A stretch of DNA of 64,000 nucleotides from NCBI RefSeq assembly GCF_019679455.1, contig NZ_JAIEZQ010000002.1:558001-622000 (forward strand), read 5' to 3'. The translations under genes and the position numbers were made by a program. Source of the DNA: Nocardioides jiangsuensis (GTDB lineage: Bacteria > Actinomycetota > Actinomycetes > Propionibacteriales > Nocardioidaceae). Shown here one piece after another: positions 34,705 to 37,362 of the stretch (the first letter of the stretch is position 1; each line of letters begins with the position of its first letter). The notes under the pieces are model-generated. The model saw only the letters and a list, made by a program, of their open reading frames with translations. It ran no database searches and was not told the DNA's origin.

Positions 34705-34927
34705 CCGGGCGGTTGTGATCGGCGCGCCCGGAACGGTGACCTGGCGGAACGGCCGGAGCGGGTAGCCCAGATGGGTGGTTGGGGGACCACTTCGGTCGAT
34801 TCGGCTCAGATCCGGACGGACCCGGCGAAGACTCACACCTGCCCCTGAACTTCTCGGGGGTGCTGCAGCGCTGCCTGGGGAGGCAGGCGACGCGGCGCAG
34901 TTGGGGACTGCACTCAAAGGTGTTCAC
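34705..34927 (+). promoter_or_regulatory. 223-base gap and leader upstream of the coiled-coil gene
   Basis: No gene is evident in this gap. The last 60 bases contain two compact hairpins: CTGCCT-GGGG-AGGCAG at 34871-34886 and GCAGT-TGGGG-ACTGC at 34897-34911. A smaller GACC-ACTTC-GGTC lies at 34785-34797. Closely spaced hairpins before a secreted-protein gene suggest a structured 5' leader. I could not match it to a known riboswitch. A purine-rich CAAAGG lies about 8 bases before the ATG. Confidence 0.4.
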
Positions 34928-37288
34928 ATGTCTGTTTCTCGCACCAGCCGGCCCACGGCCACCACCGGCCCGGCCTTCTTCGTCAGGCGCGTCGCGCGCG
35001 TGACCCTCGCCCCGGCCGTCTGCGCCGGGCTCCTCCTGGCCGGCAGCCCGGCGCTCGCCGCCTCGACGACGACCTCGGGAGGCATCTGCTCGGGCGTCGT
35101 GAACCAGCTCTCCCACCGCGGCATGGTCCAGGAGAACCTGCTCAAGGCCGCCGCACGGAAGAACGCGGAGGCCATCCGCCTGCTGCAGGCCGAGAGAGCC
35201 GACCTGGAGGCGCAGGCCGAGAGCCTGGAGACCCAGATCGCGGCGGCCGACCAGGAGATCGCGGCGCTCGAGGCGGAGGAGCAGCGGCTCGCCACCGAAG
35301 CCGCGGCGACCGAGACCGAGCTGGCCGGGCTGACCGAGCAGCAGGCGAGCACCGCGGCGGCCGTCGAGGCCGCCGAGCAGACGCTCGTCGACCTGCGGGC
35401 ACAGCGGGCCACGGTCGAGGGACAGCTCGCGCCGCTGCAGCAGCAGCTCGCCGACGCGCTCGCCGCGCACGACGACCTCACCGCGCAGGCCGCCGGTGTC
35501 GAGGCCGACATCACCGCGCTGCAGGGCCAGATCGCGTCCGCCGAGACCGAGCTCACGGGTCTCGAGAGCGACGCGGCGACGGCCGCGGACGCCCTGGCCA
35601 CGCAGCACACGATGATCGAGACCGCCCAGGGTGAGCTCGTCGGGCTGGAGGCCGACGCGCAGCGTGCGGCGGCAGCCGTGGCGGACGCGACCCAGGCGGT
35701 CGCCGACGGCGAGGCCGAGCTGGCCAGGCTCGTGGCCGACGGTGTCGCCGCGCAGGAGGAGCTCGACGCCCAGCGCGCCGAGATCCTCACCGCCCGGGAC
35801 GTGCTCGCGACGCGGCAGGCCGAGGCGCAGGACGCCGCGGACGCGCTGGCCGCCAAGCAGGCGGAGGTCACCCGGGCGCAGACCGAGCTCGCGGCGCTGG
35901 AGTCCGAGGCGCAGGACGCCGCGGACGCGCTGGCCGCCAAGCAGGCGGAGGTCACCCGGGCGCAGACCGAGCTCGCGGCGCTGGAGTCCGAGGCGCAGGA
36001 CGCCGCGGACGCGCTGGCCGCCAACCAGGCCGCGACCGCCACGCTCGCCAAGGAGATCGACGCGCTCAACGTGCAGATCGCCGCCGTGAACGCGGAGATC
36101 ACCGCCACCCAGGCCGAGCTCTCGGCGGCGCAGGCCGACCTGGCCGCGCTGCAGCAGCAGAAGACGGCCCTGGAGGCCGAGATCTCCTCGCTCACCGCGC
36201 GAATCGCCGCCATCAAGGGCAACTCCCCCGAGAAGCAGGCGCTCTTGGACCTGCGGAGGTCGAAGCAGGGTCAGCTCGACGCCGTCAACGCGGAGATCAC
36301 CGACACGAACGCGCTGATCTCGGGGCTGCAGGGTGACCTCACCTCGCTGCAGGGTCAGATCAACGACCTCAACGCCCAGCTGGTGACCAAGCAGCGGGAG
36401 AGCAGCGAGCTCCAGCAGCAGGCCGCCCCGCTGCAGGCTGCGGTCACCGAGGCGAACGCCGCCGTCGCCGCCAAGCAGGCCGAGGTGGCCGGCCTGGAGA
36501 GCGAGCTTCCCGCGCTCGAGGACGCGGTCACCTCCGCCGACCAGGCCGTCACCGCCAAGCAGGGCGAGCTGGCCGGCCTGGAGAGCGACCTGCCCGCGCT
36601 CGAGGGCGCGGTCACGTCCGCGAACGAGGCGGTCGCGGCCCAGGAGCAGGTGGTCGCGGACCTCGAGGCCGAGCTCCCCACCCTCAGCCAGAACGTGGAG
36701 GCCGCCCAGCAGGCGATCGCCGACCAGACGGCGGTGCTGGAGGGACTGCGCGACAACCTCGGCGAGGCGGAGGCCGACCTGGTGGACGCCAATGCCGCGG
36801 TCGAGGCCAAGCGGGCCGAGATCGCCCGGCTCGAGTCCGAGCTGCCGGCGCTGCAGGCCGCGGTCGACGAGGCGAACGCCGCCGTGAACGCCAAGAAGGA
36901 CGAGATCGCGACGCTGAACGCCCGCCTCGACGACCTGGTGGCGACGCTGACCGGGCTCAACGGCCGGATCGCCGTCAAGGAGCAGGAGATCCTGGACCTG
37001 CAGGCCCGGGTGGCCCCGCTCCTCGCGGAGCTGACCAGGATCGACGAGGAGATCTCCGCGACCGAGGCGCAGCTGACCACCCTGCAGGGCCAGCTCAGCT
37101 CGCTCGACCAGAAGATCACCGCCGCCCAGGCGACGCTGCGCACCCTCGAGGCCCAGAAGAAGGCCAACAAGGACGCGATCGCCACCCAGAAGGGCGTCGT
37201 GCTGTCGCTGCAGGCCCAGCTGGGCGACGTGCAGAACCGGATCAAGGCGATCGACGGACAGATCGCGCTCGGCGGCTGTGTCGTCTGA
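34928..37288 (+). CDS. Secreted giant coiled-coil protein, 786 aa
   Basis: This exported protein of unknown function has a signal peptide to about residue 45 (LAPAVCAGLLLAGSPALAAS). It then forms a continuous Ala/Glu/Gln/Leu coiled coil to the C-terminus with almost no breaks. The mature chain has no Phe, Tyr or Trp, and only two cysteines, at 54 and 784, one at each end. A 28-residue period (four heptads) is obvious, including two DNA-identical copies at 35821-35988. There is no catalytic or anchoring motif. It could be a filament, spacer or surface scaffold. Its own leader upstream and a strong terminator downstream suggest monocistronic expression. Confidence 0.85.
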   Translation: MSVSRTSRPTATTGPAFFVRRVARVTLAPAVCAGLLLAGSPALAASTTTSGGICSGVVNQLSHRGMVQENLLKAAARKNAEAIRLLQAERADLEAQAESLETQIAAADQEIAALEAEEQRLATEAAATETELAGLTEQQASTAAAVEAAEQTLVDLRAQRATVEGQLAPLQQQLADALAAHDDLTAQAAGVEADITALQGQIASAETELTGLESDAATAADALATQHTMIETAQGELVGLEADAQRAAAAVADATQAVADGEAELARLVADGVAAQEELDAQRAEILTARDVLATRQAEAQDAADALAAKQAEVTRAQTELAALESEAQDAADALAAKQAEVTRAQTELAALESEAQDAADALAANQAATATLAKEIDALNVQIAAVNAEITATQAELSAAQADLAALQQQKTALEAEISSLTARIAAIKGNSPEKQALLDLRRSKQGQLDAVNAEITDTNALISGLQGDLTSLQGQINDLNAQLVTKQRESSELQQQAAPLQAAVTEANAAVAAKQAEVAGLESELPALEDAVTSADQAVTAKQGELAGLESDLPALEGAVTSANEAVAAQEQVVADLEAELPTLSQNVEAAQQAIADQTAVLEGLRDNLGEAEADLVDANAAVEAKRAEIARLESELPALQAAVDEANAAVNAKKDEIATLNARLDDLVATLTGLNGRIAVKEQEILDLQARVAPLLAELTRIDEEISATEAQLTTLQGQLSSLDQKITAAQATLRTLEAQKKANKDAIATQKGVVLSLQAQLGDVQNRIKAIDGQIALGGCVV
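35821..36024 (+). repeat. 84-bp tandem duplication inside the coiled-coil gene
   Basis: Copies 35821-35904 and 35905-35988 are identical base for base; a third partial copy of 36 bases (35989-36024) follows before divergence. 84 bases equal 28 codons or four heptads, so the duplication keeps the coiled-coil register. Identity including third positions indicates a recent event. Confidence 0.95.
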
Positions 37289-37328: not shown

Positions 37329-37362
37329 CGAGGCCCCCGCACCCCACGGTGCGGGGGCCTCG
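37329..37362 (+). terminator. Strong terminator after the coiled-coil gene
   Basis: A 15-bp perfect stem (37329-37343 with 37348-37362, arm CGAGGCCCCCGCACC) with a 4-base loop CCAC lies 40 bases after the stop. Its stability suggests an abundant transcript. Confidence 0.85.

Follow-up and report, generated by a model that had tools for sequence, protein, structure and literature searches.

We identified a family of secreted coiled-coil proteins whose members probably fold as exported single-chain antiparallel hairpins, with both conserved cysteines at the same end, and act as struts of fixed length. One member is encoded in the window, a 64,000-nucleotide stretch of the Nocardioides jiangsuensis genome (Table 1). 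The argument is carried by features read from the chains: an apparent signal peptide, a cysteine near each end, fixed length classes, insertions and deletions centred on a putative hinge, and matched shortening of the two arms; the hairpin fold and its elbow are predictions. In the proposed structure, the chain would run out as one heptad arm, turn at a Gly/Pro/Asn hinge near residue 431 and run back, residue i pairing with approximately residue 864 − i to give a rod of ~50 nm, possibly with an elbow ~155 residues from the hinge. Cys54 and Cys784, like the termini near which they sit, would then lie together at one end (the base). Given an oxidising exterior, we infer a Cys54–Cys784 disulfide, most likely intramolecular, together with putative binding sites (at the base, the conserved head and tail; below the tip, a conserved patch at residues 465–506) through which the strut could hold two partners at a set distance.

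Table 1 Features of the hairpin-protein gene and its immediate flanks, in window positions
Feature	Position	Strand	Basis
AAAGG, ribosome-binding-like	34916..34920	+	Read from the sequence just 5' of the ATG
Gene for secreted coiled-coil protein, predicted hairpin	34928..37288	+	786-aa ORF, ATG start; nine full-length relatives
Signal peptide, residues 1–44 (ends ALA, then A45)	34928..35059	+	By eye; simple-rule check across the family
Conserved head, residues 45–86	35060..35185	+	Column conservation; alignment
Cys54 codon	35087..35089	+	Invariant, 55/55 aligned chains
Predicted N arm, helix residues 63–428	35114..36211	+	AlphaFold; heptad phase constant ~97–412
Predicted N-arm break, residues 273–279 (275–277 in one AlphaFold run)	35744..35764	+	AlphaFold
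84-bp tandem repeat, 2.7 copies, 96% matches, within N arm	35803..36030	+	
Predicted hinge, residues 429–433 (indel zone ~425–437)	36212..36226	+	Indels; AlphaFold
Predicted C arm, helix residues 434–780	36227..37267	+	AlphaFold; heptad phase constant ~447–755
Conserved patch below hinge, residues 465–506	36320..36445	+	Conservation; present in 616 class
Predicted C-arm break, residues 582–594, level with 273–279	36671..36709	+	AlphaFold
Cys784 codon in GGC tail	37277..37279	+	Invariant, 55/55 aligned chains
Strong stem-loop 3' of stop codon, terminator-like without T run	37330..37361	+	Folding energy

An earlier note on this DNA had described a secreted, nearly pure coiled coil without aromatic residues, with one cysteine at each end and neither enzyme nor anchor, and this description held throughout. 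After the signal peptide, ~741 residues of nearly unbroken heptads follow, with a sharp 3.5-residue period of hydrophobic residues and a mature composition of 24.6% Ala, 12.4% Leu, 10% Gln and 10% Glu. Cysteine occurs only at positions 32, 54 and 784 and phenylalanine only at 17 and 18; Cys32 and both phenylalanines are inside the signal peptide, and tyrosine and tryptophan are absent, so the mature chain is free of aromatics and keeps Cys54 and Cys784 alone. At the 6.5% F+Y+W of neighbouring proteins in the window, ~48 aromatics would be expected per 741 residues. Aromatics number zero in 11 of 60 family chains, with a median of ~1 and a maximum of 6; their absence is extreme in the window protein and not strict in the family. 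The chain ends in ALGGCVV, and a C-terminal LPXTG motif, hydrophobic stretch and basic tail are all absent. The lipobox rule calls for a small residue just before the cysteine; in the window protein GGI precedes the cysteine and an AxA site lies upstream, and the rule flagged none of 61 chains.

These observations are real, and the window protein is no orphan: it belongs to a secreted family. Beside the window protein we found 65 further distinct relatives, mostly from Micrococcaceae (61 distinct chains including the window protein and then five more, 66 in total, with L140, a repeat of L046, counted once). Nine are full-length relatives at 48–55% identity from a scan of named genome contigs, eight from Arthrobacter and one from a metagenome contig labelled Chloroflexi. 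Judging from the alignments, the features of the window reading frame are not due to chance, since length, export signal and the cysteine pair all persist in full-length relatives at ~50% identity. Using a profile of the head, we detected the family in 51 of 395 genomes from the taxonomic family of an Arthrobacter (Micrococcaceae), in 8 of 366 from its order (three of them seen already), in 1 of 394 from the window's class, namely the window's own genome, and in 2 of 301 from the phylum to which the metagenome genome belongs, namely that genome itself and one weak match. The distribution is thus patchy, common in some Micrococcaceae and rare elsewhere. Whole-protein searches returned the window's copy alone in its own genus (1 of 4 genomes, none in the three other members) and in its own family (1 of 197 genomes, with at most five candidates scored per genome), and it is the single copy in a 3.97-Mb genome. 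No plasmid or phage copies were found by BLAST, whose low-complexity filter may hide coils. Median pairwise identity among 55 long chains is 49%; the window protein's position in the tree has a support of 0.14, so no donor for horizontal transfer is named. We dropped 24 further weak matches to the first 126 residues (294 genomes), none with the head motif, as well as a Burkholderiales protein (L053, 26% identity) and G1058 (E 4e-4), both of which matched in the coil only. A second, shorter member ~30% identical to the window protein, with 398 residues between its cysteines, lies in the metagenome genome labelled Chloroflexi (L139:6490-7716). Searches of the literature did not find this secreted protein family described.

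The end cysteines are conserved across the family. Exactly two, near both ends, are present in 65 of the 66 distinct chains, window protein included; the remaining chain (L138) is cut by masked bases, so all 65 complete chains have two. One sits in the invariant head motif (residues 45–86, GICxGVVNQ..HRG.VQENLL+AA..NA..I..L) and the other in a tail motif that reads GGC in all chains except L139 (AGC) and L151 (VTC). A signal-like N terminus was present in 61 of 61 chains under a simple hydrophobicity and AxA rule, and the five later chains were inspected by eye. The distance between the cysteines is quantised, at 726–734 residues in 57 chains, 616–617 in seven and 398 in one. Mean column conservation is 0.76–0.82 in the head, 0.74–0.82 at residues 465–506 and 0.67–0.77 in the tail region, against 0.63 overall, and is low at the hinge (0.56). 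The 616 class is monophyletic (support 0.997) and lacks 56 residues (eight heptads) in the N arm and 28 + 28 in the C arm, with further small changes near the hinge.

These length changes bear directly on how the chain is arranged. The earlier note had proposed that the end cysteines might staple parallel dimers into fibres, and an in-register parallel homodimer would form a rod of ~105 nm with a flexible joint in the middle and a cysteine cross-link at each end. Such a rod would fit the continuous heptads and the end cysteines, and a mid-rod joint would also gather indels and shift the heptad phase. Among 54 long relatives, 33 of 34 indel events between the cysteines fall at residues 420–440 (in 24 chains) and one falls in the arms (L090); the heptad phase is flat over ~97–412 and ~447–755, with a single shift, at the hinge. 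A parallel rod, however, offers no reason for both halves to lose the same 56 residues. Nor does it explain why the N arm exceeds the C arm by 20–28 residues in each of the 11 chains measured, although their sizes differ nearly two-fold (arms of 213/185 to 379/354). In these chains we set the hinge visually at the Gly/Pro/Asn stretch, least surely in L139, the most distant one. We therefore consider the parallel dimer unlikely, and the evidence speaks rather for a chain that doubles back at its midpoint.

Structure prediction pointed the same way. AlphaFold, run once with 10 sequences and once with 55, gave helix from ~58/63 to 780 except for short breaks and a 5-residue turn; both models broke at ~273–279, 429–433 and 582–594. 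The outer two, the first of which adjoins the conserved Gly272, each lie ~155 residues from the hinge, an equidistance that a parallel rod would leave unexplained. Confidence was middling (pLDDT 76.6 and 75.8; pTM 0.32 and 0.40), and a hairpin is a shape that AlphaFold can give to any long amphipathic helix. The antiparallel arrangement of the arms is thus a prediction, one that the arm-length matching supports. Mirror signals in the sequences, which like the predicted fold favour the hairpin over the parallel dimer, modestly point to a pairing sum of 861–872: covariation was best at i + j of 861–870 in several settings (8 pairs versus 2.5 expected among the top 100 with j − i ≥ 100), a hydrophobic mirror test ranked 872 best of 330 sums and a charge mirror test ranked 864 third. 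The covariation is weak, in that this range was not best for the distal arms alone, other ranges led in most settings when 400 top pairs were used, and other sums ranked first when values were averaged over diagonals.

The closest structural likeness is to the arms of SMC, Rad50 and MukB, which are also long antiparallel coiled-coil hairpins with a mid-chain turn, an elbow and termini held together. The predicted model matches the SMC-type structures 5xg2, 5nnv and 7ogt; its hinge half superposes on crystal fragments of SMC arms, with rmsd 2.7 over 237 for 5xg2 and 2.2–2.3 over 231–252 for 5nnv. These matches score 13–16, and VIA-align cautions that helical rods commonly reach Z values of up to ~13. 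Unlike those proteins, the window protein has no ATPase head halves and no hinge domain (a turn of ~5 residues takes its place), and it carries a signal peptide and end cysteines; the NCBIfam model SMC_prok_B scored 148 bits against a cutoff of 567. The enterococcal surface exclusion proteins PrgA and SEC10/PgrA share a long extracellular stalk, and 6z9l was among the Foldseek and VIA matches. PrgA is a wall-anchored protein with a protease domain on a ~40 nm stalk (PMC10588982), whereas the window protein has neither protease domain nor wall anchor, and the SEC10/PgrA model TIGR04320 gave 41.4 bits against a cutoff of 70. The peptidoglycan hydrolases RipA and Cg1735 also contain actinobacterial antiparallel coils (6ewy, rmsd 3.3 over 199; 8auc also among the matches), but their coil is much shorter, and a catalytic domain could not be accommodated in the window chain, which is coil throughout. 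The hairpins of the dynein stalk and of chemoreceptors (3wuq, 2ch7) are antiparallel two-helix rods with a tight turn, a likeness of structure alone.

Among the best 25 of 46 and best 25 of 32 Pfam and NCBIfam matches, all were generic coiled-coil models, and no curated prokaryotic family fits. The crescentin model Rod_CreS (56 bits versus a cutoff of 100), the intermediate-filament model Filament (31.3 versus 40) and the S-layer SlaB model NF040788 (62.4 versus 700) fell short. BRE1, ADIP, ATG16 and Fez1 scored above their gathering cutoffs, matches that we read as coil composition and not kinship because these eukaryotic coil models were placed on different parts of the chain. A sequence search of the PDB with the head gave six weak matches, five of them designed coils.

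The hairpin reading also bears on how molecules might be joined. Head-to-tail disulfide linkage into an extracellular filament, another suggestion of the earlier note, would use the two conserved end cysteines and the signal peptide. If the chain is a hairpin, however, both cysteines lie at one end, which would permit an intramolecular staple or base-to-base pairs and not a head-to-tail fibre; moreover, a fibre would tolerate repeat-driven drift in length, yet the length is fixed, and no assembly-type neighbouring gene is common across clades. We regard such a filament as highly improbable. Of the note's "filament or spacer", the spacer remains plausible; the head-to-tail fibre is the weaker reading, unsupported by the evidence, and should give way to a probable length-locked hairpin. 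Base-to-base pairing would instead yield dumb-bell dimers of ~100 nm with intermolecular Cys54/Cys784 disulfides and overlapping heads. Because the N arm is 20–28 residues longer than the C arm, the head would overhang, and a Cys54–Cys784 bond within one chain would need the head folded back; this overhang is conserved and constant across the size classes, and it could zip together with the head of another molecule. An internal staple is nonetheless the simplest use for two cysteines at one end, and we consider the dumb-bell quite unlikely.

As a stapled hairpin, the protein would have arms of ~51–55 nm by a simple estimate (helices rise ~0.148 nm per residue). Its role is most likely that of a fixed-length extracellular strut or tether between base and patch, since the 616 class retains the base and residues 465–506 and has lost heptads between them. 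Gene neighbourhood is conserved only inside single clades and no neighbour is common across clades, so this role is read from anatomy alone. We advance more tentatively, as a doubtful possibility, a dedicated extracellular molecular ruler: a stapled strut of two main heptad-quantised lengths that spaces partners across or beyond the actinobacterial wall. Long hairpins of antiparallel coiled coil are familiar mainly from cytoplasmic ATPases, where they form the arms, and from stalks that bear another domain. A bare secreted hairpin, constant within a few residues of ~730 and losing arm in equal heptad blocks, would imply strong selection on length outside the cell; near-constant length across many species suggests an unrecognised extracellular molecular spacer in some soil actinobacteria. 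Such a protein could serve as a simple test object for how cells use distance at their surface, and nanoscale work would gain a naturally stapled rod.

The sequence around the gene offers some hints of its regulation and history. With a ribosome-binding-like AAAGG before the ATG and a very stable stem-loop after the stop codon (−46.4 kcal/mol, z −5.7), the gene may form the end of a transcription unit of its own. The 84-bp tandem repeat lies within the N arm of a chain whose length equals that of its relatives, which suggests recent homogenisation without net change in length. Near-direct repeats of the form C(A/G)(A/G)GTA(G/C) stand upstream of many Micrococcaceae copies, often 20–23 or ~33 bp apart, for example CAAGTAGT and CGAGTACT 5' of the start at loci such as L092, L049 and L127, and are absent as an array at the window copy. 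The pattern occurred 135 times against 43 (s.d. 7) in shuffles, with related loci counted apart; LytTR-type regulators use direct repeats of similar period. A search of ten genomes gave 13 matches, eight at family-gene loci and five with no readable common function. An upstream riboswitch was rejected: with E values up to 1 allowed, Rfam gave no match for the window region, and none of the four gathering-level matches across ten loci (a tRNA-Sec, two tRNAs and a c-di-AMP riboswitch) lay directly 5' of the gene.

In the window, a POT transporter gene and the hairpin-protein gene stand between genes for a MaoC-like protein and a histidine phosphatase, which adjoin each other at three relatives' loci (L035, L036 and L039), so the intervening pair looks inserted. 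The same site in another genus of the family to which the window belongs holds a POT transporter and other secreted-looking genes (L038:3030-9554), and could therefore be a hot spot for insertions. The family gene of Arthrobacter hankyongi (L052:8472-11708) adjoins tRNA-Sec, beside ORFs resembling SelB and SelA.
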